Shown here piece by piece: positions 1 to 12,808 of a stretch of DNA of 26,132 nt. Source of the DNA: a virus. Each line of letters starts with the position of its first letter. Position 1 is the first letter of the stretch. Location: positions 1 through 26,132 of IMG/VR virus record IMGVR_UViG_3300010391_000090. One strand, written 5' to 3'. A program made the translations under genes and the position numbers. The notes under the pieces are model-generated. The model ran no database searches, was not told where the DNA came from, and worked only from the letters and a program-made list of their open reading frames with translations.

Positions 1-8
1 GGAGCCTT

Positions 9-1115
9 ATGATTCCAATTTATAGTCCGTATCTACCAAAGGGGTCATTAGATTACGCTCATGATGCTCTAGACTCTACTTGGATTTCTTCAAAAGGGCC
101 TTATTTAAATAAAGCAAAGGATATGCTGTCAAAGATTTATGAGACAGATTTTGTTTTATTAACTAATAACGGGACCGCTTCTAATCATATTATGGCTAGG
201 GTAACAAAATTACAATTTCTGGACCGGCATAATTTAATTGTACCAAATAATGTTTATGTAGCCGCTTGGAATCCTTTTGTCTTGGAGGGGTTTCATTTGT
301 GGCCTAAAGATGCAGATATCAATACTTGGAATATGGACTTTTCAGATTATCAAGCTCATCGAACAGATTTATTATTAGTTGTTCATAATCTAGGTAATAT
401 AATAAATGTTCCAGAATTAAGAAAAAGATTTCCAGGCACACCTATTATTGAGGATAATTGTGAAGGGTTCGGGGGAATGTATGACTATAAACCAAGTGGT
501 TATTTCTCGGATAGTTTTACTCTTTCTTTTTTTGGAAACAAGAATGTTACGTCTGGCGAAGGCGGAGCCTTCATCACTTACAATAAAGATGCCTATGAAT
601 ATGCGTTTAGGTTCCACGGACAGGGGCAGACCAATATAAAATATATACACAATATGGTTGGTTATAACTATAGAATGACAAATGTACAAGCAGCAATTCT
701 TTGTGGGCAGCTTGAACTAAGAGAAAAAATCGCTGATAAGAAGAGAAGGATATTTGGTTACTATGCTACTAAATTTGATTATCCTTGCTTTAGAACGCAA
801 CATACAGAGGTAGGAACGCATCCTTCTAACTGGATGTTTGGATTAAGAATAGTGGGTAATAAGAGATATTTTGATACTGAACGATTTATGACTGAGGCTG
901 GAATAGAAGTTCGCCCTCTTTTTTATCCCATTCGTTATCATAAACATCTTCACCATATAACTAATTTTTCAGTAAATAAAGAACCAGATAAAGTGGCTAC
1001 TCAATTAAGTCAAGAAGTAGTAATACTACCCTGCTATCCTGATTTAGATATAAATGAACAGGCCTATATTATAGATAAGGTAAAGGAATATGCTAGAGAA
1101 AGTAATCTTCTATAA
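9..1115 (+). CDS. DegT/DnrJ/EryC1/StrS-family PLP-dependent sugar aminotransferase
   Basis: 368 aa, full length for the family. Such enzymes transfer an amino group, usually from glutamate, to a 4-keto or 3-keto nucleotide sugar to give an amino sugar. Visible hallmarks are TNNGTAS near residue 52 (cofactor phosphate region), IIEDN around 146-150 with D149 placed to bind the PLP pyridine nitrogen, SFFGNK at 173-178 with K178 as the Schiff-base lysine followed by TSGEGG, and GYNYRMTNVQAA near 218-229. The retained lysine argues for a transaminase and against the ColD-type dehydratases, which have histidine there. The start at 9 has GGAG at 1-4. The 3' end overlaps the next gene by 26 bases. 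The exact sugar substrate cannot be told, and no dehydratase or epimerase partner is in the window; the locus may continue upstream or use host nucleotide sugars. Confidence 0.9.
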   Translation: MIPIYSPYLPKGSLDYAHDALDSTWISSKGPYLNKAKDMLSKIYETDFVLLTNNGTASNHIMARVTKLQFLDRHNLIVPNNVYVAAWNPFVLEGFHLWPKDADINTWNMDFSDYQAHRTDLLLVVHNLGNIINVPELRKRFPGTPIIEDNCEGFGGMYDYKPSGYFSDSFTLSFFGNKNVTSGEGGAFITYNKDAYEYAFRFHGQGQTNIKYIHNMVGYNYRMTNVQAAILCGQLELREKIADKKRRIFGYYATKFDYPCFRTQHTEVGTHPSNWMFGLRIVGNKRYFDTERFMTEAGIEVRPLFYPIRYHKHLHHITNFSVNKEPDKVATQLSQEVVILPCYPDLDINEQAYIIDKVKEYARESNLL

Positions 1116-1965
1116 CTATTACGGGCACGGCGATCTATTTACTTCTAGAGAATTTGTAAAGGAGCTTATGGAAAAAATTCCCGCTGAGGAGTATTTCTTT
1201 GCTCATCTTAGAAATCCTAGGGTTTTACTGGATATAGAAAATCTTCAATATATGCATCCTACAGATGAAATGGAAAATGGAAAGGCATGGAAACAGACTG
1301 ATGGAACCCTGTATATTAATACTTGGATAGGTAGAGATTCCAAGTATGTTCTACCAGGAATAGGTTGTACGGTAGAGCAGTTTCATTTAATGTATACACA
1401 TTATGCTCAAGAAATGAATATTCCTCCCTTTACAAAAGGGATGAGAGAGTATATCCCTAGCATAAATTATGGATATTTTCATATAGCAGCCGAAGAATAT
1501 TTTTTACTTCGTCACCCAGGACCAAGAGTCTTAATATGTAACGAATGGGTGGGTTCTAGTCAGGCAGATAACTTTGATATGGCTCCTATTATATCTCGTA
1601 TAGCGAGAGCTTATCCAAAAATACAATTCTTTATGACAAAAGATATAGGTTATAGGTTTGATAATCTACGTTATACAGGAGATTTAATAGAAGCTCCTGA
1701 TGGATTTGATCTTGTAGAGATATCTTATCTCAGTAGATACTGTGATTTAATTATAGGTAAATGCTCGGGCCCGCACGTTCATACAATGGTTCGAGAGAAT
1801 TGTATGGATAGTAAAAAAACAAACCTTTCCTTTACTTATAATCGAAATGCTGAACACTTCGTAAAACTAACAGATATTCCAATGCGAAAGATATGGAGTC
1901 CTGCTGTCAAAGAAGGCCCGGTGTATTCTATAATAAAAGGGACAATAGAACAATGTCTACAATGA
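1090..1965 (+). CDS. GT9-like (heptosyltransferase-type) glycosyltransferase, putative
   Basis: 291 aa. The N-terminus (FYNYYGHGDLF, residues 7-17) resembles the glycine-rich opening loop of GT-B enzymes. The C-terminal half carries YLSRYCDLIIGKCSGPHVHT at 213-232, which matches the shape of the GT9 signature (a short helix, D-hydrophobic-G-x-x-SGP-x-H) that contacts the sugar nucleotide. A Rossmann-like stretch precedes it (RVLICNEW near 146-153, IQFFMTKD near 178-185). The start is inside the aminotransferase gene, preceded by AAAGG, and the end overlaps the next gene, so translation is probably coupled. Family assignment rests on these short motifs only, and the overall sequence is divergent. 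Donor and acceptor are unknown. Its place between an aminotransferase and a GT2-like gene supports a role in using the sugar made by the first gene. Confidence 0.6.
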   Translation: MLEKVIFYNYYGHGDLFTSREFVKELMEKIPAEEYFFAHLRNPRVLLDIENLQYMHPTDEMENGKAWKQTDGTLYINTWIGRDSKYVLPGIGCTVEQFHLMYTHYAQEMNIPPFTKGMREYIPSINYGYFHIAAEEYFLLRHPGPRVLICNEWVGSSQADNFDMAPIISRIARAYPKIQFFMTKDIGYRFDNLRYTGDLIEAPDGFDLVEISYLSRYCDLIIGKCSGPHVHTMVRENCMDSKKTNLSFTYNRNAEHFVKLTDIPMRKIWSPAVKEGPVYSIIKGTIEQCLQ

Positions 1966-2858
1966 TTGGAATAGTAACTTATGGGAATGCTTCTTTTACA
2001 AAGATGGCTATTGAATCTATTTTTGAGACAACTAAACAAATAACCGAACGAGATATTGTTATAATAGTTGGATTGCCTGGGGATGGAGAGACATCGGGAC
2101 TTGCTGCTCATTATGGAATCCCACACTTTACTCATGGTGAAAATCGTGGATTTCCCGCTTCACTAAATGATATTTATGATTATTGTTGGGGCGAAAGGAA
2201 AGTAGATAATATTATAATGATGGGAAATGATGTAATGGCTTATCCTTATTCTATAGACTCATTAATAAAAGTAGCTGAAACTACTAATTTTGAGTGGATT
2301 TGTTCTAAAGAATATAGTGTAAAAGCTTTTATTCGTGATTTTCCTCATATTGCAAAATATTTTCAAGGAGGTAGTAAGCTAATATATAGGGCTTTTAATG
2401 AAAAACTTTGGCTATTAGCAAAACCTTATGCAGAAACAGTAGTTATACATCCTGGTGGATTAAGTGATGTACATAATCTTGCTTTATTCAAGAAATCTGT
2501 TTTCGACAAGATAGGATATATAGATGTAAATTTCTATCCAGCTTATTTTGAAGATAATGATTACGCAAGACGGGGAGTAAATGCTGGAATACTGTCTTGT
2601 ACATTAGTTAACTCTATATATTTTCATTTTTGGAGCAGAACAATCCATCAAGGAAAAGGTTCTTCTACCAAACAATTTAAAAATAATTCTAACTTTTATA
2701 AATTAAAATGGGGCGGAGAGTTTGGGTCAGAAGCATATTCATTACCCTTTAATGGACATGAATATAGTTTAGCGGGAGCAAAATTACAGCCTTCATTAAA
2801 GATAGATACCAGAATAGATGAGGATGCCCTCATAAAATATTGGCGGCACAAGTCATAA
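1953..2858 (+). CDS. GT2-family glycosyltransferase, putative
   Basis: 301 aa from the ATG at 1953; an upstream in-frame ATG at 1893 would add 20 residues read inside the previous gene and has no ribosome site, while AAAGGG lies at 1936-1941 before the chosen start. The N-terminus (MIGIVTYGNASFTKMAIESIF) is the usual first beta strand and helix of a GT-A fold. ENRGFPASLND at 63-73 matches the ENxGfaxxxN element of GT2 enzymes, and NIIMMGNDV near 86-94 sits where the metal-binding DxD lies, here in the form GND. A later FEDNDYARR resembles the ED(x)D catalytic-base region. It overlaps the preceding gene by 13 bases and ends in a TAATG overlap with the terminase gene, so sugar genes and packaging genes share one transcript. 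Substrate is unknown. Confidence 0.75.
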   Translation: MSTMIGIVTYGNASFTKMAIESIFETTKQITERDIVIIVGLPGDGETSGLAAHYGIPHFTHGENRGFPASLNDIYDYCWGERKVDNIIMMGNDVMAYPYSIDSLIKVAETTNFEWICSKEYSVKAFIRDFPHIAKYFQGGSKLIYRAFNEKLWLLAKPYAETVVIHPGGLSDVHNLALFKKSVFDKIGYIDVNFYPAYFEDNDYARRGVNAGILSCTLVNSIYFHFWSRTIHQGKGSSTKQFKNNSNFYKLKWGGEFGSEAYSLPFNGHEYSLAGAKLQPSLKIDTRIDEDALIKYWRHKS

Positions 2859-4411
2859 TGATTATTGAAAAGATAACAAAAGATGATTTAGAGCTTTATG
2901 AGATTATTAGGCATCCAATTTTATTTGGAGAGTTCTATAGAAATCTAGACATTCCTACATGGAGCGATGAAGTATGGGAATACTCTCTATATCAAAAGGA
3001 ATATCTTGGAGACTTTAGCCCTTACCAATCTTTATGTTGTGCTCGTTCTGTTGGTAAGACGGTTACTCTGACTGACTTTATTCTTTGGATAATGATAAAT
3101 AATCTTTTTCCAGGGGAATATATTCTATATACTGTACCAAATAAGGTACATTTAGAACCAGTATTTACAAATTTAATAAGAGGTTTTAGAACTAACACTT
3201 TATTAAAACACTTTATAGAACCAAAAAAGGGGATCAACTCATCAACTCATACTATAGGTCTTTTAAATAGCGCTCTTCTTATGTGTCGTATCGCTGGAAC
3301 AAGTGGAACAGGCGCTAACGTAGTTGGTCTGCATACTCCTATTGTAATTTTAGATGAGGCTGGATATTATCCCTGGGGAACATGGTCTGAACTACAGCCC
3401 GTTCTAAATACTTTCCAACCAGGGGCAAAACTGTGGGTTGCAGGCGTACCAACAGGACTTAGAGAAAATAATGTTCTTTATTATTCTGATGAAGTGGAAG
3501 ATTCATTTTCTAGACATCAGACATCTGCCCACGATAACCCAAGATACTCTGAAAAGGATGAGATTAGAAATCTAGCACAATATGGTGGGGTAGACAGCGA
3601 GGACTATATCCATTTTGTTCTAGGAAGACACGGCTCTCCTACCTTTGCTGTATTTGATAGACGTTTGATGGAAATAAAGACGTATCCTACTTATAGAATT
3701 AAGTTTTCTGGTATGGATTTAGTAACTTATAAAGAAATGAGAACTCGGATGACTCTCATTCCCCCCGTACCAGATAACGAGTTTGTTGTATTGGGTATAG
3801 ACTTAGGGTACACCGAAGATACGGCCATTATGGTATTATATGAGAAGGACGGTCATTTATATGAGCATGTTCGTATAAATTTGGTGAAGGTAGAGTATCC
3901 AGATCAAGAAAAACTTATTGATTTCTTGGACACTAGACTACAACCCTCTATTATTGGTATAGATGAAAGCGGTCCCGGTAAGGGTTTAGTACAGAATATG
4001 CTTTCACACGAAGACTATGCTCATAAGGAATACTATAAACGAATGTTTCCCGTAGATTTTAGCTCATCAGTAGTCTTAGGTTTAGACGAAGATGGTAAAG
4101 AAATAAAGGTAAAGACAAAACAACAAAGTGTAACTTTATTACAAGAATATTCTAACTCTCATAAGATAATCTATTCTACAACTGATATGGAGTTGATTAC
4201 TGAAATGGAGAGAATGACTTATACTAAAAATCCGACAGGTATGATAACCTATAAAACTCTTACTCCGAGAGGAGGAGAGAGAGGAGACGACCATAATACT
4301 GCTGCGATGCTATGTGCGGCAATGGCTTATTATATGAAGATGGACCATATCTTGATTGGTCCAAGAAAGAAGCCATTACTGAAATCAAAGTGGATTATGG
4401 GAGGAATATAA
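2858..4411 (+). CDS. terL: Terminase large subunit (packaging ATPase and nuclease)
   Basis: 517 aa from the ATG at 2858, which overlaps the previous stop as TAATG; an upstream TTG at 2840 in the same frame is less likely. The protein drives DNA into the prohead through the portal and cuts the concatemer. ATPase motifs are CARSVGKT at about 61-68 (Walker A, arginine form), VILDEA at 163-168 (Walker B plus catalytic Glu) and a coupling-type segment WVAGVPTG near 193-200. The RNase H-like nuclease has its acidic residues in LGIDLGYTEDTA (D315), IIGIDESG (D369) and GDDHNTAAML (D477/D478). All key residues are present, so it should be active. No small terminase gene lies next to it in the window; the upstream neighbours are sugar genes, so TerS must be elsewhere or absent. 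A purine-rich stretch near 4268-4285 lies just before the last nuclease motif. Confidence 0.95.
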   Translation: MIIEKITKDDLELYEIIRHPILFGEFYRNLDIPTWSDEVWEYSLYQKEYLGDFSPYQSLCCARSVGKTVTLTDFILWIMINNLFPGEYILYTVPNKVHLEPVFTNLIRGFRTNTLLKHFIEPKKGINSSTHTIGLLNSALLMCRIAGTSGTGANVVGLHTPIVILDEAGYYPWGTWSELQPVLNTFQPGAKLWVAGVPTGLRENNVLYYSDEVEDSFSRHQTSAHDNPRYSEKDEIRNLAQYGGVDSEDYIHFVLGRHGSPTFAVFDRRLMEIKTYPTYRIKFSGMDLVTYKEMRTRMTLIPPVPDNEFVVLGIDLGYTEDTAIMVLYEKDGHLYEHVRINLVKVEYPDQEKLIDFLDTRLQPSIIGIDESGPGKGLVQNMLSHEDYAHKEYYKRMFPVDFSSSVVLGLDEDGKEIKVKTKQQSVTLLQEYSNSHKIIYSTTDMELITEMERMTYTKNPTGMITYKTLTPRGGERGDDHNTAAMLCAAMAYYMKMDHILIGPRKKPLLKSKWIMGGI

Positions 4412-4412
4412 A

Positions 4413-5927
4413 ATGGCAGAAACCAAACCAGTAAGATTAGCTAAAGCACATATGGTCAGAAGACGAGCTACAGTTTTTAGTCCAACTGGACATACTTCTC
4501 AGGGCATTTATGCTGAATTAGTAGATAAACTATCATATGTTAAGCATGAGGATTTTGAAAGTGTAATAAAGAACTGTAGATTTTTCTTTAGACACGATCC
4601 TTTAGCTGCTACAGTAATAAATAAAGTAGTAGATTTTGCTATTAATGATATTGTTGTAGATACAGGCGGCAGAGCCAAAACCACAGAAGTTGAAATCTAC
4701 GACGCTTTAAGTACTGATTTAAAACCCTTTCTTAGAAAAGCAGCTTATGAATATTTACTTACAGGATTAGTTGTTCCAGAAATCAGACTTACAAGGATTA
4801 GAAAGGCTGAACTAAGGGGTAAAGGCATAAAAAGATTAGAGAGCCTACTTTATCCAACAAGCATGTGGGTACGGGATTCTGCTACAATTAATATCAAGAA
4901 GCCACGAATTTCTGAGAAAGAATCCTATTTTGTCGTAATAGACGACGATCTTTACTTCTTTATTAAATCAAAGGGTCAATATCCAGATGGAACAGAAGAC
5001 CCAGAGTTATATACAGAAATCCTAAGACTTTATCCAGATTTCATTACCGAAGTTTTAGCTAATCCAAATAGAGAAGTTCTTTTAGAGAATCCACTAATCG
5101 TTAAGGGAACAACAACAGAGGATTCTCCATATCCAATTCCCTATTTATACCCTGCTCTTGAAGCGCTAAAACATAAAAGAAATCTTAGACGAATGGATTA
5201 TTCAATAGCCGCTAGAGTTATTGGTGCTATTCTTCATGTAAAGGTAGGTAGTGACGAGTATCCTCTGACAGAAGATCAAGAAGATATTATGACAGATTTG
5301 GAACAGAAATTCCAATGGAGAAGTGGAATTACTCCCGCAGAGTTAGAAAGGGTATTTGCTCTATTTACCAATCATACAGTAGAACTAGAGTGGATACTTC
5401 CTGATGTTACTGCTATGTTGGATAGCGATAAATATAAGTCAATTAATGAAGATATTATGGTAGCCCTTGGCTTTCCTAGAATTTTAATTACAGGAGAGAC
5501 AGAGAGATCGTTTGCTTCTGATCCTCAGATTGCCACAATATCTCCGCTACATACAATGGAAAAGATACGGGATTCTCTTCTTCCTATTGTGAAACATATC
5601 TTCCGTGAAATGCAAGATCATAATAGGATTATAGAAGAATACCCTATTATCAAATTTAAGCCTTTGAATCTAATGAGTATGTCAATCTTCTTTGAAGGAC
5701 TGGCTGCTCTATATGAAGCAGGCAATTTGTCAAGAGAATCACACATGGAAGCATTTGGTTATGACTTTACAACAGAACAGAATAAGAGAAAGACCAACGA
5801 AGAATATATGAAAGAACTTGGTGTGGAACCTGTTGCTCCATCTAATAAACCTGGGGCTGTAGGACCAGATGGTAAGCCGGTTACTAAACCGGGCGCTCCA
5901 ACAAAGCCGCCAGAAGGTAAGAAATAA
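4413..5927 (+). CDS. Portal protein
   Basis: 504 aa, within the usual portal range, and placed directly after the large terminase and before the protease. The dodecameric portal forms the DNA channel at one capsid vertex and docks the terminase and neck. Supporting features: an N-terminal basic segment, FRHDPLAATVINKVVDFA (typical of the portal wing/clip opening region), a conserved core with KHKRNLRRMDYSIAARVIGAIL, and the late segment EDIMVALGFPRILITGE, a common portal pattern (model/asp-x-hydrophobic-GlyFP followed by a tunnel helix). The C-terminus is a flexible tail rich in Pro, Lys and Gly (about residues 470-504). One base separates it from the terminase stop, and its own stop overlaps the protease start as TAATG. 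The assignment is by these patterns plus gene order. Confidence 0.9.
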   Translation: MAETKPVRLAKAHMVRRRATVFSPTGHTSQGIYAELVDKLSYVKHEDFESVIKNCRFFFRHDPLAATVINKVVDFAINDIVVDTGGRAKTTEVEIYDALSTDLKPFLRKAAYEYLLTGLVVPEIRLTRIRKAELRGKGIKRLESLLYPTSMWVRDSATINIKKPRISEKESYFVVIDDDLYFFIKSKGQYPDGTEDPELYTEILRLYPDFITEVLANPNREVLLENPLIVKGTTTEDSPYPIPYLYPALEALKHKRNLRRMDYSIAARVIGAILHVKVGSDEYPLTEDQEDIMTDLEQKFQWRSGITPAELERVFALFTNHTVELEWILPDVTAMLDSDKYKSINEDIMVALGFPRILITGETERSFASDPQIATISPLHTMEKIRDSLLPIVKHIFREMQDHNRIIEEYPIIKFKPLNLMSMSIFFEGLAALYEAGNLSRESHMEAFGYDFTTEQNKRKTNEEYMKELGVEPVAPSNKPGAVGPDGKPVTKPGAPTKPPEGKK

Positions 5928-7225
5928 TGCCAGCAGAGTATGAAGCATGTGTTCGTTCGGAAATAAAGAGTGGAAAATCGAAGCAAGATGCTCAACGAAT
6001 ATGTGCTATAAGTTTTATTAAACGACATGGAGTGCATCCAAGTAAGATGCATAAAGCTGTCCATGAAATGTCTGAACAAGAGATTATGGAGCTAATTTAC
6101 GGAAAAACCGACCATAATGAGGCAGTTAACATAATGAAAAACAGCATATTTACTACGAAAGATGTACAATTCTTATTAGAAAGTAAAGATTTAAAGGAAT
6201 TTGAAGCCCATGCTGCTATTTCTTTAAACCCTAATATCACATGGATGAAGTTTGTTCTAACAGATGATAGAGCAAACTTAAACAGACAAAGAATTCCTCA
6301 GACAGAGTTCGCTAATGTTATTCGAACTGGTGTCCATATGCCCTTAAAAATGGCCGCTGGAACAATTAGTGAAGGCCATGAGGATACAGTTCCTCTAGGA
6401 ACAATGGCTCACCTGCTTCAAAAAGATAACGAGATAGTAGTTCTTGCTGCTCGTTGGGGCCATGAACGTGAGGCAGATGTAGCTCTTCTAAAGCAAAGAT
6501 TTAGTGAAGGTAAGCCGATTGATATTTCATGGGAGCTTACTCACTCTGATTCAACCCTTGATGATGAAGGAGTTGAAGATTTTGTAGATGTATCCATGAA
6601 CGCAGCGACCATAGTTGGTATGCCTGCGTATGGTGGTAGAACAACCGTAGAGGTCATTGCCTCTAAAAACGATTTAGGAGACGATATCATGGAATTAAGT
6701 GAGCATGAAAAACTAATGACTGAAATGAAAACAGTCGTAGAAGCTCCTCTTAACACTAAGATTACGGAGCTTACAGCTTCCCTAGAAGCAGCAAATACCG
6801 AACTTACAGCACTAAAGACAGCAAGTGAAGCATCAGTAGCCGAACTAGCGGGTCTTCGTGAGTTCAAGACTGGTGTTGAAGCTGCGGAAGCACTTGCAAC
6901 CAGAATAGGTACTCTTCGTGCCAAGTTAGTTGCAGCAGGTTTGGAAGTAACAGATGAGTATTTTGCAGAACGTCAAGAGAAGTTACTTGCTATGTCAGAT
7001 GAACAACTAGACTTCTTTATTCAGGAACTTGTTGCTTTTGAAGCCGCAGCAAAAGCTGAGGCAACACAAGAAATAGAGGAAGCTAGTATTCTTCTAGGTA
7101 GCAAGAGAATTCCTGTAATTCGTGCAAAGAACGTAGAAGCAGTAGATGAAGATAGTCTACTTAAGCATTTGAAGTCACTTGATCCTGAAAGAACACCTTT
7201 GACTTTTAAAAAGAAGCAAAGTTAA
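5927..7225 (+). CDS. Prohead maturation protease fused to C-terminal scaffold
   Basis: 432 aa in three parts. Residues 1-35 form a small basic module with two cysteines (C8, C26) in the pattern Cys-Val ... Asp-Ala-Gln-Arg-Ile-Cys. Residues about 100-247 look like a phage head-maturation serine protease: ITWMKFVLTDDRANLN, then GHEDTVPLGT (candidate catalytic H151) and GKPIDISWEL (candidate nucleophile S201), the H/S arrangement seen in HK97-type prohead proteases. Residues about 255-330 are rich in Ala, Glu, Leu and Thr with heptad-like spacing, as in a coiled-coil scaffold, ending in a basic tail that could bind capsid protein. Gene order portal-protease/scaffold-capsid agrees. A strong internal ribosome site at 6676-6680 probably yields the scaffold alone. 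The start is coupled to the portal stop by TAATG. The catalytic residue choice is by pattern, not proven. Confidence 0.82.
   Translation: MPAEYEACVRSEIKSGKSKQDAQRICAISFIKRHGVHPSKMHKAVHEMSEQEIMELIYGKTDHNEAVNIMKNSIFTTKDVQFLLESKDLKEFEAHAAISLNPNITWMKFVLTDDRANLNRQRIPQTEFANVIRTGVHMPLKMAAGTISEGHEDTVPLGTMAHLLQKDNEIVVLAARWGHEREADVALLKQRFSEGKPIDISWELTHSDSTLDDEGVEDFVDVSMNAATIVGMPAYGGRTTVEVIASKNDLGDDIMELSEHEKLMTEMKTVVEAPLNTKITELTASLEAANTELTALKTASEASVAELAGLREFKTGVEAAEALATRIGTLRAKLVAAGLEVTDEYFAERQEKLLAMSDEQLDFFIQELVAFEAAAKAEATQEIEEASILLGSKRIPVIRAKNVEAVDEDSLLKHLKSLDPERTPLTFKKKQS
6676..6680 (+). promoter_or_regulatory. Internal Shine-Dalgarno site for the nested scaffold
   Basis: AGGAG coded by the Leu-Gly-Asp codons of the protease gene, with 8 bases to the ATG at 6689. 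It decides the internal start of the scaffold product. Confidence 0.7.
6689..7225 (+). CDS. Nested in-frame scaffold protein (internal start in the protease gene)
   Basis: 178 aa starting at Met255 of the protease-scaffold gene. The ATG at 6689 is in the same frame as the long gene and sits exactly at the change from the protease domain to the Ala/Glu-rich coiled-coil segment. AGGAG at 6676-6680 lies 8 bases upstream, which is optimal spacing and as strong as the sites of separate genes here. Known precedents are lambda C/Nu3 and other phages where the scaffold is made in excess from an internal start, while the fused protease form is minor. The product would assemble with capsid protein into the prohead and then be cut and expelled. 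Seen: start, SD, frame, domain boundary. Inferred: that it is used in vivo. Confidence 0.72.
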   Translation: MELSEHEKLMTEMKTVVEAPLNTKITELTASLEAANTELTALKTASEASVAELAGLREFKTGVEAAEALATRIGTLRAKLVAAGLEVTDEYFAERQEKLLAMSDEQLDFFIQELVAFEAAAKAEATQEIEEASILLGSKRIPVIRAKNVEAVDEDSLLKHLKSLDPERTPLTFKKKQS

Positions 7226-7252
7226 TTACTCCAAATTGGAGGAGCTTAAATC

Positions 7253-7855
7253 ATGGAAATTAGAAAATATTTAGATATCGTAGGTGTAGTTTGTACAGAA
7301 GCGATCCAAGAGGGTCGTATGGTTCGTTTAACTGCCAGAGGCACTGCTGGTTTGGTGAACTTTGGTGGTGGTGATGATCTTCCTGGTGTAGAATATCCAA
7401 ATACAGAAGCAGAAGCTAACCAAGCTACATATTGTGTGACTTGGCCGGTTTATAACCAGAACTTTGAGGGCGGTATCCGTATGGTCGTTCCTCAGCCTGG
7501 ACAAGATGATGAACTATTTGCTCTAAGACGGGGCTTTGGTGGAAGTGGTTCAGATACTCCTCCTCTTGACCCAACAGCAGTTTATTTGACATACCCTGGT
7601 CATACTAATGGTGTTACTATTCCAATGGGTAATCAGGCACTTGCTTTTGCCCGTGGTGTTTTCAAGGTCTTCTCAGGCCAATATCTTTATCAACCACTTA
7701 TGGAACAGGTAGGACAGGCACTATCAGTTGCTAATTCAGATGATGATGGTGGCGATGCAGGTAAGCTACAAGTACAGTCTGGTTCAGAAACAGTTATTGC
7801 TTACGTTGAGCACTTTGATGGAAGCGATAGTTCGTTAACATTTAGAACTCTATAA
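7253..7855 (+). CDS. Putative capsid decoration/stabilisation protein
   Basis: 200 aa, preceded by a very strong ribosome site (GGAGGAG at 7238-7244, 8 bases before the ATG), which implies high expression. It lies between the protease-scaffold and the major capsid gene, the position of lambda gpD-like decoration proteins. The sequence is rich in Gly, Val and Thr with few Lys, opens with VGVVCTEAIQEGRMVRLTARG (a beta-rich opening common in small capsid-associated proteins) and has a Gly/Asp-rich segment in the middle (FGGSGSDTPPLDP). No signal peptide or membrane segment is seen. I do not recognise a specific family; the function is inferred from position, expression signal and beta-rich composition. 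It could alternatively be a minor head protein or a head fibre base. Confidence 0.55.
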   Translation: MEIRKYLDIVGVVCTEAIQEGRMVRLTARGTAGLVNFGGGDDLPGVEYPNTEAEANQATYCVTWPVYNQNFEGGIRMVVPQPGQDDELFALRRGFGGSGSDTPPLDPTAVYLTYPGHTNGVTIPMGNQALAFARGVFKVFSGQYLYQPLMEQVGQALSVANSDDDGGDAGKLQVQSGSETVIAYVEHFDGSDSSLTFRTL

Positions 7856-7868
7856 CAAAAAATCTTAA

Positions 7869-7902
7869 TATAGAGGGATAAAGTAAAAGGATATTCTCTA
7901 TA
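7869..7902 (+). promoter_or_regulatory. Stem-loop in the leader of the capsid gene
   Basis: In the 67-base gap before the capsid gene, TATAGAG (7869-7875) is complementary to CTCTATA (7896-7902), with a loop of 20 bases in which two further G-U pairs are possible at the base. It may be a weak terminator, an RNase processing site, or a leader element separating the capsid message from upstream genes. There is no U-tract after it. A TATAAT sequence at 7913-7918 is too close to the start codon to serve as a normal -10 box. Confidence 0.3.
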
Positions 7903-7922
7903 AAAAATGAGGTATAATTCCT

Positions 7923-8831
7923 ATGGATGAGAAGAAAGTACAAGAAGCAGTAGCATCTATGTTAGCTGATTCGTCTCAACGTGATGCTCTAGCCGAATTA
8001 ATTGTTGAGTTTGTTGAACCAAATCATCTAACAACAGAGTTCATTAGTGATATTCTGGATAGCCGTGCTCTAAAGCCGGGCGATTCTCTAGTAAAGAAAA
8101 TCCGTAGAGGTATTGAAGTTCGTACCTTAGTTCCGGGTTCTATCGCTTTGGCTAGTGAGATTACTGTTGAAGAGCGTATCGCTTACGTTCTAGATACAGC
8201 AGTTGTTAAGGTAACTTACAACGAATGGGAGTTACTAGCAGGCGATATTGGAACAGTACAAAGTATTCGTGCAGAAATGGCCGCAAGACTTCGTGAGCAT
8301 TTCGTAAATAGACTATACACAGCTATTTCTACAGTCTGGACAGCCGGTAATACACCAAATAACTTTGTTTCAGTTGGTGGTGCAGTTACAGCCACAGCCC
8401 TAGAAGATGCTATTGACCAGATCAATCTAAGAGGCAAAGCTAAAGTTGTTCTTGGTTCAAGAACAGCTATGACCCCGATTTCTAAGTTTGGTGCTTTTTG
8501 GGACAATGCCGCAGGTGATACCGTGGGTTCACAGAATGCCATTGATGAAGTTCGTCAGAGCGGATTCCTTGGTAGATATTACGGTGTTCCTTTGATGATT
8601 GTTGAGCAGGTTTATGATAATCCTGTAGACAATGTTGCCCTAGTACCAGAAGATTTTATTTTGGTTATAGGCGAAAAAGCTGGTAGTTTCATTACATATG
8701 GCCCAACTAATTCAAGCCAGTGGAGTGATCCAGCAGTTATTCCGCCACAATGGTTCCTACAGTTATGGACACAGTGGGGACTTTTAATTGATAACGCAGA
8801 AAAGATTTACGTTATTGGCGGTCTGAGCTAA
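7923..8831 (+). CDS. Major capsid protein (HK97-fold, predicted)
   Basis: 302 aa. It builds the icosahedral shell. Support: position after portal, protease-scaffold and decoration genes; GAGGT at 7909-7913 before the start; a strong hairpin directly after the gene, as often seen for the most abundant product; and sequence features of HK97-type capsid proteins. The N-terminal 50 residues are helical and acidic (possible N-arm), followed by a charged segment with paired basic residues (VKKIRRGIEVRTLVPGS). The C-terminal half contains KVVLGSRTAMTPISKFGAF, GFLGRYYGVPLMIVEQV and ALVPEDFILVIGEKAGSF, the usual A-domain order of a loop, a Gly-x-x-Gly-Val-Pro turn and a late beta strand. It lacks a long N-terminal delta domain, in agreement with a separate scaffold. 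Closest family not determinable here. Confidence 0.87.
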   Translation: MDEKKVQEAVASMLADSSQRDALAELIVEFVEPNHLTTEFISDILDSRALKPGDSLVKKIRRGIEVRTLVPGSIALASEITVEERIAYVLDTAVVKVTYNEWELLAGDIGTVQSIRAEMAARLREHFVNRLYTAISTVWTAGNTPNNFVSVGGAVTATALEDAIDQINLRGKAKVVLGSRTAMTPISKFGAFWDNAAGDTVGSQNAIDEVRQSGFLGRYYGVPLMIVEQVYDNPVDNVALVPEDFILVIGEKAGSFITYGPTNSSQWSDPAVIPPQWFLQLWTQWGLLIDNAEKIYVIGGLS

Positions 8832-8839
8832 AAGTAAAC

Positions 8840-8855
8840 CCTACTTAACCGTAGG
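8840..8855 (+). other. Small hairpin after the capsid stop codon
   Basis: CCTAC (8840-8844) pairs with GTAGG (8851-8855) around the loop TTAACC, 8 bases after the capsid stop. The string CTTAACCGTAGG here is close to CCTAACCGCAGG in the loop of the hairpin after the tail tube gene. Confidence 0.35.
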
Positions 8856-8858
8856 CCT

Positions 8859-8894
8859 GAAGGGAGGTCTATCCGAGAAGATGGACCTCCCTTC
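8859..8894 (+). terminator. Strong hairpin after the capsid gene (terminator or mRNA stabiliser)
   Basis: A 15-base-pair stem, GAAGGGAGGTCTATC (8859-8873) with its complement at 8880-8894, contains one G-U pair and closes on the loop CGAGAA. It lies 27 bases after the capsid stop. What follows (TAAAATAATTTAATTT) is AT-rich but not a clean U-tract, so termination is probably partial and the structure may also protect the 3' end of the capsid message. The next gene has its own ribosome site downstream. Confidence 0.75.
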
Positions 8895-8926
8895 TAAAAT
8901 AATTTAATTTATAGGAGGAATTTGAT

Positions 8927-9484
8927 ATGGTTGATGTAAGGATATCAGGCGCACGGATGGAAGGTGAACCATTTGCACGGTACAAGAAAACGATTGTAGG
9001 AAAAGTTTATGTAACTATTCTCGATCCGTTTTTAGACCAACCAGTAGGTGTAATTTTAGAAGGTGTTCCAGAAAAAGGTGCAATAGTACAACGTAAGTTT
9101 CGTGGTCCTGACCCTCTAGACACTCAGATCGTTGAGGTCTGGGATGCTCGTCAGGATTCTTTTTTTAGAAAGGTAAATAAGAAGCATTTTGACGCAGGTA
9201 GATTAATGCTAATTGAAGGCGAATTACCTGTTGCTCCTGTTTCTCCAAATGCCCTTTCTGATGCAGAGTTAGACGTGATTTTGAGTAGTCGTTTTCTGGC
9301 TCTTCAGAACCGTTTAAACGCACTTACTGATGAAGCGCCACTATTTAGACTACTTAATAGAGCTAGAGAGCTTGAGAAGTCTGAAAAGATCATTAAGCAT
9401 ATTGAAGAAAGACTAGCAGAAGTACAGCTAGAATCATATGGTGGAGTAGCTCCTGATACAAATTTAGTTATAGCAGGACAATAA
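8927..9484 (+). CDS. Hypothetical structural-region protein after the capsid gene
   Basis: 185 aa, not recognised. AGGAGGA at 8913-8919 gives a strong start. The N-terminal 95 residues look like a small beta domain (TIVGKVYVTILDPFLDQPVGVILEG), then a Pro/Val linker (LPVAPVSPNALSDAEL), then about 70 residues of predicted helix with many charged residues (FLALQNRLNAL, ARELEKSEKIIKHIEERL). No signal peptide, membrane segment or catalytic motif is seen. It sits between the capsid gene and a head-tail adaptor, a site where siphoviruses often encode small head or neck proteins, so a virion or assembly role is likely. It could be an accessory capsid protein, a neck component or a non-structural assembly factor; the sequence does not decide. 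Confidence 0.6.
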   Translation: MVDVRISGARMEGEPFARYKKTIVGKVYVTILDPFLDQPVGVILEGVPEKGAIVQRKFRGPDPLDTQIVEVWDARQDSFFRKVNKKHFDAGRLMLIEGELPVAPVSPNALSDAELDVILSSRFLALQNRLNALTDEAPLFRLLNRARELEKSEKIIKHIEERLAEVQLESYGGVAPDTNLVIAGQ

Positions 9485-9490
9485 AGATTA

Positions 9491-9979
9491 ATGGCAACCG
9501 TTTCCCTAGAATTTCTTAGAGAAAGATTAAGGCTTCATATAGGGGACATGGATAGTACCCAGTATATTGATTCATGGTTAAACTTAGCGCTTATAGTATC
9601 TGTAGAAAGTCTCCAGACGTGGTGGAATTATAAGTATCTACTTAATGACGACGACGAGGCATATAGAAATCCTGAAATAAGATTCTTATTTGATGAGCCT
9701 CCGGTAATAGAAAGAGGTGACCATAAGCCGATCATTTTAATGGCTTCAATTATCCTAAAAACAGGTGATCTCCAAAGCATGTCTTGGAGTATCGGTTCTT
9801 GGCGGGATGCCGAAATATCATACTCTAATATACAAGGGGGTAAGGCGAAAGATGATCTGATATTAGGAGATTGGAAAGAGCTTACTAGCATCTTAAAGCC
9901 TCCTCAGAAACGATTATCTGCACCGGGAAAGAAACATCTACATGGATTCAAACAGAATCCATACGAAACAAAGAGCTAA
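9491..9979 (+). CDS. Putative head-tail adaptor (head completion) protein
   Basis: 162 aa. The N-terminal pattern FLRERLRLHIGDMDSTQYIDSWLNLALIVSVESLQTWWNYKYLL (given here by position: residues 7-50, with L-R-L-H-I-G-D at 13-19 and paired Trp at 43-44) fits the helical-bundle opening of gp6/gp15-type adaptors that bind under the portal ring. The C-terminal 35 residues are basic and rich in Pro and Lys, as in adaptor tails that insert into the portal. Gene position, the second gene after the capsid gene, agrees. The ribosome site is weaker than its neighbours' (AGGA about 12 bases upstream). Assignment is by pattern and gene order, not by a recognised specific homologue. Confidence 0.6.
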   Translation: MATVSLEFLRERLRLHIGDMDSTQYIDSWLNLALIVSVESLQTWWNYKYLLNDDDEAYRNPEIRFLFDEPPVIERGDHKPIILMASIILKTGDLQSMSWSIGSWRDAEISYSNIQGGKAKDDLILGDWKELTSILKPPQKRLSAPGKKHLHGFKQNPYETKS

Positions 9980-9994
9980 CTTGGAGGAATTACT

Positions 9995-11206
9995 ATGGCA
10001 GGGAGAGGTAAGAAAAGGGTATTTTGGATTTCCGATGCTGTTGCTACTACAGGATTTTCTAGGGTCGCTCATAATATAATAAAAAATCTACCTACTGAGA
10101 GATATGAAGTTCATCATTTAGGTATAAATTACTTAGGCGATCCTCATGGATATAAGCACTATATTTATCCTGCCCTTTTGGGCGGAGATTTATATGGTGT
10201 GAGAAGAATGCAAGAGTTGATCGGGGCTATAAAACCCGATCTAATTTTTCTATTCAATGATGCCTGGATGATAAATCAGTATTTACAACAGCTAGAAAAA
10301 CTTCACATACAGGATATTCCGGTAGTAGTTTATTTTCCGATAGATTCAGAAGGCTCGGATGCTCTATGGTTTGAAAGATTTAAAATGGTAGAAGATGTCT
10401 GTGTCTATACTGAATTCGCAAAGAAGGATGTTATAGCTACGGGCGCTTTTCCTGAGCCTCCAAAGATACATATAATACCTCACGGTGTGGATACCCGTAA
10501 ATTTTTTCCTTTCAAGGATATGGGGGAACTTCGTGGAATAGATATAGCTAAAAGAAAACTATATCCAAAGAAAAAAACCCTTATAAACTCATTTATTGTC
10601 TTGAATGCCAATAGAAATCAACCGAGAAAAAGGATAGATATTACTTTGATGGCATTTGATGAGTTCCAAAAGGATAAAGAAGATGTAATGCTTTACTGCC
10701 ATATGGGTGTGGAAGATGCTGGAGTAAATGTTCTTAAAGTAGCTAATAGATTTAAGTGGGATAAGAAATTAGTCTTATCTACTTTGAAGGATCAAATCCC
10801 CGGCGTTCCTGATAGCAGATTAAATCTAATCTACAACGCTTGTGATGTAGGCTTGAATACTTCTACAGGCGAAGGTTGGGGTCTAACCGCCTTTGAACAC
10901 GCTGCTACGAGAAGAGCACAGATAGTTCCAGATCACTCAGCTAATTCTGAGATATGGAATGATAGTAATGCTCTTATGATTGAAGCGGGCGATAGAATAA
11001 TGTACGAACATACCAATAATATTGCCCGCATTCCTAAGTTTGACTCAGTAGTAGAGTGTTTAGAAAGGGCATATGATATGTGGCATAAGGGCACTTTAGG
11101 AGAACTGGCCCAAGCTGCTTATGAGAATGTAACACAAGAGAAGTACAATTGGAAAGTTATTACTAATCAATTCGAGGCGATATTCGCACGAATTCTAGGT
11201 GACTAA
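9995..11206 (+). CDS. GT4-family (group 1) glycosyltransferase
   Basis: 403 aa, full length for a GT-B retaining glycosyltransferase. N-terminal Rossmann domain begins KRVFWISDAVATTGFSRVA (donor-side glycine region). The inter-domain segment IPHGVDTRKFFP (161-172) is a standard GT4 feature. The C-terminal domain has VLNANRNQPRKRID (about 202-215, phosphate contact by basic residues) and STGEGWGLTAFEHAA, in which E293 and E301 form the E-x7-E motif. It should transfer a sugar from a nucleotide donor, probably retaining, in the cytoplasm. The start has GGAGG at 9983-9987, and the stop overlaps the next neck gene as TAATG. Its position among head-tail connector genes is unusual and suggests that the acceptor is a virion protein, but host glycan is also possible. 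Confidence 0.9.
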   Translation: MAGRGKKRVFWISDAVATTGFSRVAHNIIKNLPTERYEVHHLGINYLGDPHGYKHYIYPALLGGDLYGVRRMQELIGAIKPDLIFLFNDAWMINQYLQQLEKLHIQDIPVVVYFPIDSEGSDALWFERFKMVEDVCVYTEFAKKDVIATGAFPEPPKIHIIPHGVDTRKFFPFKDMGELRGIDIAKRKLYPKKKTLINSFIVLNANRNQPRKRIDITLMAFDEFQKDKEDVMLYCHMGVEDAGVNVLKVANRFKWDKKLVLSTLKDQIPGVPDSRLNLIYNACDVGLNTSTGEGWGLTAFEHAATRRAQIVPDHSANSEIWNDSNALMIEAGDRIMYEHTNNIARIPKFDSVVECLERAYDMWHKGTLGELAQAAYENVTQEKYNWKVITNQFEAIFARILGD

Positions 11207-11655
11207 TGATAATTACGTGGCCTGGGAATACACCAGAAATTATAGATGATATTCGAGAGGCCATCGGGCGAGAAATTACAATTTATGTAACAGTAAGTGG
11301 TATAGAATGTGACGATGTATCGGATAGTTTTGATCCCGTAACTGGCTTATCAACCAATCAATTCTGCCCTACTTGTGGTGGAAAATGGTACTTAAATACA
11401 ACTTCGGGTTTTGTAACTAAGGCTCATATTACTGAACTAAATAATTTAGATTTACCAGTATGGGTAGCCGGTGGAACTATAGTAGATGGTGACTCAAGAG
11501 TTCAGTTTAAACTAACAGCAAGTTCAGTATTTGCTGTAGAAAATGCAGACTACTATCTTGTTGATGATAAAGAGTACATACAAAAAACGGTATCCTATAG
11601 AGGGGTTCCAGAGTTAAATAGAGTAATAGTAACTCTGATAGAAAGGGAGGAATAA
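11206..11655 (+). CDS. Putative head closure/stopper-type neck protein with cysteine motif
   Basis: 149 aa, predicted beta-rich, with TAATG coupling to both neighbours. A cluster of cysteines (C35, and CPTCGG at about 54-59) resembles a zinc-ribbon knuckle, a feature of a group of small phage neck proteins in which a Cys-containing loop is inserted in a beta barrel. The position after the adaptor and before a gp10-like and a tail-completion gene matches the head-closure protein that seals the portal after packaging. Only three cysteines are obvious, so full zinc binding would need another ligand such as H75 or shared sites between subunits. The function is inferred from position and size. Confidence 0.5.
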   Translation: MIITWPGNTPEIIDDIREAIGREITIYVTVSGIECDDVSDSFDPVTGLSTNQFCPTCGGKWYLNTTSGFVTKAHITELNNLDLPVWVAGGTIVDGDSRVQFKLTASSVFAVENADYYLVDDKEYIQKTVSYRGVPELNRVIVTLIEREE

Positions 11656-11948
11656 TGTCTTTTGAAGAGGTAGATCATAGTATTCCAGTAAAAGATGAGG
11701 ATAATGAATATTTTCCTAATCCAAGTATTACTATTGATGGTCTTGATGTTCTTGATGTGCTCGATTTTTTCACAAAGAAAAAGGACAAATTCATAGCCAT
11801 TGCTCTTTCTGAGTTAGAAGAGTATATGGATAAAGATAGTAATGAATATAAGTTTATCAGAAAAGTCTTACTAGACGCTACGAATGATTACACAAGATCA
11901 CTTCTAAGAATTCTATTTGGTAATATTGAAGGCTTGGTTATGAAGTAA
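11655..11948 (+). CDS. Small hypothetical neck-region protein
   Basis: 97 aa, acidic at the N-terminus and mostly helical afterwards (FFTKKKDKFIAIALSELEEYM, then NDYTRSLLRILFG). A strong ribosome site (GGGAGG at 11644-11649) precedes the start, which overlaps the previous stop as TAATG, and the end overlaps the next gene in the same way. No family is recognised. The tight coupling on both sides in the neck module argues for a real gene with a structural or assembly role. Repeated Leu-Asp-Val (GLDVLDVLDF) near residues 29-38 is the only distinct sequence pattern. Confidence 0.6.
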   Translation: MSFEEVDHSIPVKDEDNEYFPNPSITIDGLDVLDVLDFFTKKKDKFIAIALSELEEYMDKDSNEYKFIRKVLLDATNDYTRSLLRILFGNIEGLVMK

Positions 11949-12808
11949 TGGCACTACCAGTTGAACAAATTGATCTAAAAAATTTATCAGTCAATGCTAA
12001 AGCTTTATTAGCTCAAATAGATAAAGGTGCTTTAGTAACAGATGAAGATATTGTATCAACAGCTTTAGGAAGAGTTTTTAATCAGATACAAGGAATCCTA
12101 CTTAATAATCTTAGAAGAGCAATTAATACTACCAAAGAATTTAATACTCCTGAATTATCAGGACATTTAGAAATTGTTTTCTCTAATCCAGATATAATCA
12201 GGGTTAATTCTTCTGATGGAAGATTAAACTTATTTGCTAGTGCTTCTGCTGTAGCTGGAGATTGGAATGATATGGAAGCGGGTATTATTGTGGCTAGAGA
12301 TACTCTAGGTTTTAAAGGAACTAATACTCCCGAAGAACGCTCTAAGTACTGGAAAGAAATAATTTATGCTCCTGCAAGAGAAGGAGCGGCTGCTCCAGAA
12401 GAAGTATCTAGAGGTAAGAAACAATCTTTTAGAAGTAAAGCTAAAGATGCATATAGTAGAACTATAGAAGCACGATTGGATATTTGGGGAGAACTTGCTC
12501 CTTATTGGTTAATACTTAATTATGGTAATGCTGAAGCTCCTTTTAGTACAGGTGGAGAGCCATACCCTAATAGACCCCCTACTTATTTTATAGAAGCTAC
12601 TGAAAAGGCAGCAAATGTAATCTTACGAGCAGCCATACAACAAGTAAATCAAGAAGCAGAAAATGTTATTCTTCAAGAATTAGAAAAGTTTGAAAGAAAA
12701 AGAGTAATAAATTTAGGGGAAGTAATAAGAAGAATTTTTGTAGCTGGACAACCATACAAAATATATATCACACCCAGACGTGGTATCTTGGGAGTTAGAA
12801 GAGGCTAA
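11948..12808 (+). CDS. Putative gp10-like neck/tail completion protein
   Basis: 286 aa. Helical with several basic segments and a central Gly/Asn/Pro-rich region (APYWLILNYGNAEAPFSTGGEPYPNRPPTYFIEAT by position, residues about 180-214), ending in a basic tail (PRRGILGVRRG). In many siphophages a protein between the head-closure and tail-terminator genes contains such a tyrosine/proline-rich 'lie in the interface' segment followed by a long C-terminal helix (HK97 gp10-like). The arrangement ELAPYWLILNYG followed by PTYFI and EATEKAANVI is consistent with this. TAATG overlaps on both sides. Function is inferred from position and shape; alternative roles are a minor head or tail-joining protein. 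Confidence 0.5.
   Translation: MALPVEQIDLKNLSVNAKALLAQIDKGALVTDEDIVSTALGRVFNQIQGILLNNLRRAINTTKEFNTPELSGHLEIVFSNPDIIRVNSSDGRLNLFASASAVAGDWNDMEAGIIVARDTLGFKGTNTPEERSKYWKEIIYAPAREGAAAPEEVSRGKKQSFRSKAKDAYSRTIEARLDIWGELAPYWLILNYGNAEAPFSTGGEPYPNRPPTYFIEATEKAANVILRAAIQQVNQEAENVILQELEKFERKRVINLGEVIRRIFVAGQPYKIYITPRRGILGVRRG

Follow-up and report, generated by a model that had tools for sequence, protein, structure and literature searches.

The viral contig IMGVR_UViG_3300010391_000090, whose whole length of 26,132 bases is the window analyzed here, opens with three genes for an aminotransferase (AT) and two glycosyltransferases (g2 and g3). They appear to be the 3′-terminal genes of a glycan cassette that is exchanged as a unit between a presumed small terminase subunit gene (TerS) and the gene of the terminase large subunit (TerL) in a widespread family of uncultured phages. 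The assignment to sugar chemistry has good support, and we regard glycosylation of a virion surface protein as the best single reading of this cassette and give it an even chance. On the plus strand, AT (368 amino acids) occupies positions 9..1115, g2 (291 amino acids) 1090..1965, g3 (301 amino acids) 1953..2858, and TerL, the 3′ boundary of the cassette slot, 2858..4411 (PHROG terminase, E 1.3e-21). The genes overlap by 26 bases (AT/g2), 13 bases (g2/g3), and 1 base (g3/TerL), the last as a TAATG stop/start overlap at 2856..2860, in which the g3 stop TAA (2856-2858) and the TerL start ATG (2858-2860) have one base in common; some of the relatives share this -1 junction. A first-pass annotation of this DNA had described two glycosyltransferase-like genes overlapping each other and then the terminase gene through TAATG, and the coordinates agree with this description. 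It had also called the cassette fused to the packaging operon, whereas these are overlapping genes whose translation is probably coupled. Downstream on the same strand come the portal, major capsid protein (MCP), and further structural genes. Because the contig starts 8 bases before the AT start codon (ATG), at its ribosome-binding site (GGAG), the 5′ part of the cassette is cut off. Promoter-like sites in positions 1-12000 were fewer than in shuffled sequences and terminator-like sites were near the shuffle mean. Since neither signal rose above chance, the operon boundary could not be set, and it is solely the linkage to TerL that suggests late expression of the cassette.

Searching with TerL and MCP yielded 130 loci (79 of them TerL loci). 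After removal of redundancy these made up 75 groups, all from one family of uncultured phages with a common backbone. The order AT-g2-g3-TerL recurred in independent contigs, with identities of 86/71/84% in the nearest relative and 41/35/52% in distant ones (41-86% for AT across the recurring loci), and this recurrence is beyond chance. The ratios of nonsynonymous to synonymous substitution (dN/dS) of AT, g2, and g3 were 0.05-0.14 in two pairs, within the range of TerL, the glycosyltransferase family 4 (GT4) gene described below, and MCP (0.02-0.20), indicating that the three genes are functional and under purifying selection; the base composition of the cassette was like that of the rest of the phage. 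The presumed TerS is a conserved gene encoding about 225 residues, with a zinc ribbon at the C-terminus; it was named by position and conservation, its Pfam and PHROG matches being weak and of the zinc-ribbon type. In about ten groups it lies directly before TerL (4-52 bases), leaving an empty slot, and in occupied slots the intervening genes span 0.6 to about 9.7 kb. One locus (L037) carries its cassette just upstream of TerS and not in the TerS-TerL gap. A gene for a type II DNA methyltransferase is located upstream of the presumed TerS in both of the closest relatives (L013, 5106-6068; L014, 2032-3000).

A census of the relatives with enough sequence, whose records are partial, covered 50 occupied loci and 294 slot proteins in 84 families. 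The commonest families were the GT2-like family of g3 (37 loci), g2 (22), and a DUF4254-like family (19), followed by a GT9-like family (16), FkbM methyltransferases (13), epimerases (13), and aminotransferases (11); GNAT, ATP-grasp, sulfotransferase, TylF, and other methyltransferase proteins were also present in some slots. The last gene before TerL belonged to the g3 family in 29 of the 50 occupied loci, and g2 was directly followed by a g3-family gene in 19 of 22. The distance from the last cassette gene to the TerL start was at most 10 bases in 37 of the 50 measurable loci and exactly -1 in 18. On a TerL tree of 58 rows, five cassette states required at least 26 changes, against a mean of 34.8 for shuffled labels; thus cassettes have been exchanged often, yet less than random labels would need. 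Scored by itself among the occupied slots, the presence of g2 required 13 changes. A membrane segment was predicted in 6/294 slot proteins and in none of AT, g2, g3, or GT4.

Some slot contents call for separate mention. The GT9-like label of the fourth family came from an N-terminal motif alone, with no Pfam or PHROG match and no g2 profile link, and we treat it as unconfirmed. The DUF4254-like gene (e.g., L013, 7953-8237) encodes 94 residues with a weak Pfam DUF4254 match and an invariant N..RN core, and a literature search on the function of DUF4254 found nothing useful. Five cassettes contain B12-binding radical SAM proteins (L043, 5056-6345, and similar; family 12), an unusual component of glycan clusters in phages. 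In two loci (L005 and L036), genes resembling fibre genes stand between TerS and the cassette; they had no family match, and no structural role is claimed for them.

The aminotransferase matched Pfam PF01041 (DegT/DnrJ/EryC1/StrS) at E 1e-55 (189.9 bits, cut-off 19.8). Its pyridoxal phosphate lysine, K178, was invariant across eight aligned sequences, as were D149 and S173, in accord with the earlier description of a DegT-type enzyme with an intact lysine. The best solved relatives were the perosamine synthetases 3bn1 and 3dr7 (E 4e-61 by profile and 4e-37 by single sequence); in the single-sequence search, perosamine synthetase scored 131 bits, 26 bits more than the solved sugar aminotransferase ranked after it (105). 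The best NCBIfam entry was LegC, with a score far under its cut-off. By these comparisons, AT fits a 4-aminotransferase of 4-keto-6-deoxy sugars with PerA/RfbE as its closest characterized relative. A single-sequence scan of viral contigs with AT gave no match, while the scans with TerL and g2 did yield matches.

The established route to GDP-perosamine consists of GDP-mannose 4,6-dehydratase (GMD) and PerA. The first-pass annotation had pointed upstream for dehydratase or epimerase genes, and the relatives supply both. In particular, one relative (G001; locus L036) encodes a GMD with 472.8 bits versus the NCBIfam equivalog cut-off of 415, at 33678-34589 of its contig, downstream of a TerS-like gene and ~13 kb upstream of the aminotransferase at 47640. 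As judged from these matches, the two enzymes would complete a GDP-perosamine-type route in this phage, which is supportive of the assignment. The likeness to the GDP-perosamine pathway thus lies in the best matches of AT and in the presence of both enzymes in G001, whereas most family members searched had no GMD of their own and the substrate of AT is a prediction here. Other enzymes encoded near AT in relatives, namely GNAT (L013), ATP-grasp (L005, L014, L015, and L036), and FkbM methyltransferase, could cap the new amine or hydroxyls. In G001, the GMD gene is directly followed by a gene for an FtsH-like protein of 646 residues (AAA + Peptidase_M41; L143, 10724-12664).

For g2, no accepted match was obtained in Pfam, PHROG, or NCBIfam. 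Its AlphaFold2 (AF2) model had a mean confidence (pLDDT) of 94.4, and the top Foldseek matches were GT9/WaaC/TibC. Aligned with the GT9 enzyme 3tov, the model gave a VIA Z of 16.6 over 251 residues with a root-mean-square deviation of 3.7, and WaaC/WaaF gave Z values of 14-15; G14-D15 were invariant in 23 aligned sequences. Modeling thus predicts a GT-B fold nearest to GT9, and because the fold matches without a GT9 profile match, we call g2 GT9-like and not a member of GT9. For g3, the match to Pfam GT2 (E 0.004, 17.5 bits) was under the cut-off of 23.3, and that to the PHROG galactosyl transferase had an E value of 3.5e-11. Its AF2 model (pLDDT 77.5) matched TarP and GalNAc-T2 in Foldseek at E of about 1e-10, and an acidic EDND motif was invariant in eight aligned sequences. 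The model clearly places g3 among GT-A enzymes by fold; with a score under the GT2 profile cut-off, it is termed GT2-like only. The structure search suggested in the first-pass annotation thus gave a predicted fold for each transferase. A scan of 84,980 species genomes with g2, which reaches only relatives sharing its conserved peptides, returned matches on two phage contigs only, both binned with metagenome-assembled genomes. The same scan with TerL found no relative, and tblastn with g3 found no match in a phage collection. The best viral structural match of the g2 model was an uncharacterized protein of a Solumvirus, a giant virus (26% identity, TM 0.85).

The first-pass annotation had also named a GT4 gene, at 9995..11206 on the plus strand (phrog_2170, E 2.4e-41), as a possible part of the same system. 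This gene occurred in 29/29 groups spanning g9491-g11206, including phages with an empty slot (L080, L115, and L121), and it is therefore a core gene of the head-tail region and does not belong to the cassette. GT4 relatives are located within or near structural genes in the phages S-CBS4, TJE1, and Mae-JY09. It is plausible that GT4 primes a constant acceptor, which the cassette then extends. A second insertion zone of several kb was seen between MCP, g8927, g9491, and GT4 in L048, L066/L075, L099, L104, L116, L119, and L131; it holds long proteins resembling fibres or decorations.

The following pathway may be proposed. A GMD of the host or of the phage would produce a 4-keto-6-deoxy nucleotide sugar, which AT would turn into a 4-amino-4,6-dideoxy sugar of the GDP-perosamine type. 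Upstream enzymes of the kinds seen in relatives would cap this sugar with an acetyl group (GNAT), an acyl or aminoacyl group (ATP-grasp), or an O-methyl group (FkbM), and g2 and g3, as predicted soluble cytoplasmic transferases, would attach it. The acceptor would most likely be a virion surface protein from the same gene cluster, perhaps pre-primed by the core GT4. The exchangeable cassette would then set the outer glycan of the particle, as an O-antigen island sets the serotype.

A virion acceptor is favored by the linkage of the cassette to TerL and the head-tail genes, by the soluble nature of the enzymes, and by the mycobacteriophage precedent; given the scarcity of membrane segments among the slot proteins, there is no sign of a flippase, a polymerase, or a membrane transferase of the Gtr type. 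Several points weigh against it. Soluble GT9, GT2, and GT4 enzymes also make host lipopolysaccharide (LPS) and capsule at the cytoplasmic face, and linkage to TerL is no proof of late expression. A GMD-level match was found in G001 only among nine long relative records, so that hosts would need to provide the substrate for the others. AT, g2, and g3 are missing from part of the family and hence are not essential, and the proven virion transferases of mycobacteriophages are not close homologues of the cassette or GT4 enzymes. Furthermore, similar clusters of pelagimyophages have been interpreted as modifying the host O-antigen (PMC7029224). A host acceptor ranks second: the cassette would remodel the surface polysaccharide of the host, for superinfection exclusion or receptor release, with its cytoplasmic transferases supplying the pathway by which the host itself exports LPS or capsule. 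We consider this rather unlikely, though a serious candidate. GT9, GT2, epimerases, FkbM methyltransferases, and perosamine-type sugars are generally typical of O-antigen genes, and the frequent exchange of cassettes fits host-specific O-antigens. Contigs of Chlorobium phages likewise carry gmd, fcl, and a perosamine synthetase gene, rfbE, all of which appear in a list of auxiliary metabolic genes (PMC8226683). However, neither a lipid-carrier transferase nor a flippase, polymerase, or GtrABC-like membrane protein was seen in the slots, where 6 of 294 proteins have a hydrophobic segment, and genes coupled to TerL would act late in the cycle, when remodeling of the host would be least useful. 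In addition, the genome scan described above, within its reach of conserved-peptide relatives, did not place g2 in cellular loci.

The remaining alternatives concern other targets. Glycosylation of phage DNA carrying hypermodified bases, by which restriction would be evaded, appears very improbable. Some phage glycosyltransferases do use DNA as a substrate, a relative (G002) encodes a C5 DNA methylase, and the methyltransferase upstream of the slot in L013 could be viewed in the same light; however, a single base modification is hard to reconcile with the variability of the slot, and the best fold matches of g2 and g3 did not include known DNA glucosyltransferases. Thymidylate synthase/dCMP hydroxymethylase (PF00303) was not found in the records of nine relatives, possibly incomplete, in a search whose positive control worked, and a TET/JBP search of 15 records, made without a working positive control, gave 0 matches. 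Alternatively, the TerS-TerL gap may simply tolerate insertions, with the cassettes being metabolic passengers that serve various unrelated acceptors. The varying slot contents, the many singleton families among the 84, and the empty slots agree with such a cargo hotspot, but the contents lean strongly toward glycan enzymes, purifying selection acts on the genes, and the GT2-like gene keeps its place next to TerL and directly after g2 in most of the loci concerned, so we judge a hotspot of this kind improbable. With a virion acceptor still the preferred reading, the findings might be carried further to a dedicated 'virion serotype' locus resembling an O-antigen locus, in which whole outer-sugar pathways are exchanged at one fixed slot, an unchanging virion acceptor is primed by the core GT4, and the coat is switchable by recombination; we offer this as a tentative and somewhat doubtful extension.

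Among known systems, virion glycosylation of mycobacteriophages is the closest in kind. Two papers (PMC12363180, citing Freeman et al. 2023; PMC12619734) describe mycobacteriophages whose own transferases add glycans to proteins of the capsid and the tail tube. According to these papers, the transferases of Che8, Corndog, and Myrna are phage-encoded, as here, and clustered in Che8 (gp108-110), with virion acceptors proven there and proposed here. In contrast, the Che8 transferases are located at the right end of the genome, far from TerL, and no aminotransferase was annotated in the Che8 genome stretches viewed. The g3 profile gave only 13.5 bits with Che8 gp109 and 17.6 bits with Myrna gp234, and g2 and GT4 had no match to the Che8 or Myrna enzymes. 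The host-recognition or hyperplastic region of pelagimyophages and cyanomyophages is similarly hypervariable, with sugar-synthesis enzymes and glycosyltransferases beside virion genes; however, it belongs to a T4-like backbone, its island stands with tail-fibre genes and is read as host LPS modification, and the present slot abuts TerL (PMC7029224). GtrABC-type O-antigen conversion by phages differs in its flippase and membrane-spanning transferases, of which no counterpart was seen among the 294 slot proteins.

Synechococcus phage S-CBS4 (gp14-16: GT4, galactosyltransferase, and methyltransferase) has a GT4 that is 38% identical over 98%, next to which lies a transferase of the g3 family (101 bits), both within the head genes that separate portal from protease; it differs in having no adjacent aminotransferase, TerL on the opposite strand, and no cassette in the TerS-TerL slot. 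A literature search on its glycosyltransferases found nothing useful. Tetrasphaera phage TJE1 carries nucleotidyltransferase, epimerase, methyltransferase, and GT4 genes upstream of TerS-TerL, but its cassette stands before TerS, as in L037, and not between TerS and TerL, and its GT4 is 28% identical. The huge phage LR756504 (636 kb) encodes an aminotransferase (44% identity), and ahead of it in the same cluster stand genes for a DUF4254 protein (51%) and for a homologue of g2 (30%); this set thus occurs in very different phages. That cluster (L002, 8177-11116) also holds a NeuD/PglD-like acyltransferase and stands next to fucosyltransferase-like genes, both named by eye. In the Manatee Spring podovirus MW202713 (H5/L003), a DegT gene of its own (25% identity) overlaps TerL, which suggests that the arrangement of a sugar gene with TerL arose more than once; this unrelated podovirus has a cluster of glycosyltransferase, methyltransferase, and DegT genes (L003, 5592-6581), and convergent placement is suggested.

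The first-pass annotation had proposed an undescribed virion glycosylation system. In kind such a system is not new, since mycobacteriophage transferases are known, but we found no description of this locus architecture in the literature. The variable, TerL-abutting, pathway-encoding slot seems to represent a new form of glycosylation by phage-encoded enzymes. To our knowledge, proof of virion glycosylation in phages is apparently confined to a few mycobacteriophages. Should the acceptor indeed be on the virion, the 75 groups of this family would show that particle glycans can be modular and rapidly exchanged. They would also offer a system in which to ask what phages gain from glycosylating themselves, and would supply small, soluble enzymes that handle unusual amino sugars. 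Even with a host-surface acceptor, the search for glycan enzymes, DUF4254 proteins and g2 among them, has a clearly delimited target in the TerS-TerL slot.

Finally, TerL of some relatives is one long frame with in-frame intein-like inserts, giving 904 residues in L008 (8642-11356) and 1319 residues in L012 (8327-12286). One insert is present in L008/L009 and two, at different positions, in L012, and tblastn splits TerL at these sites.

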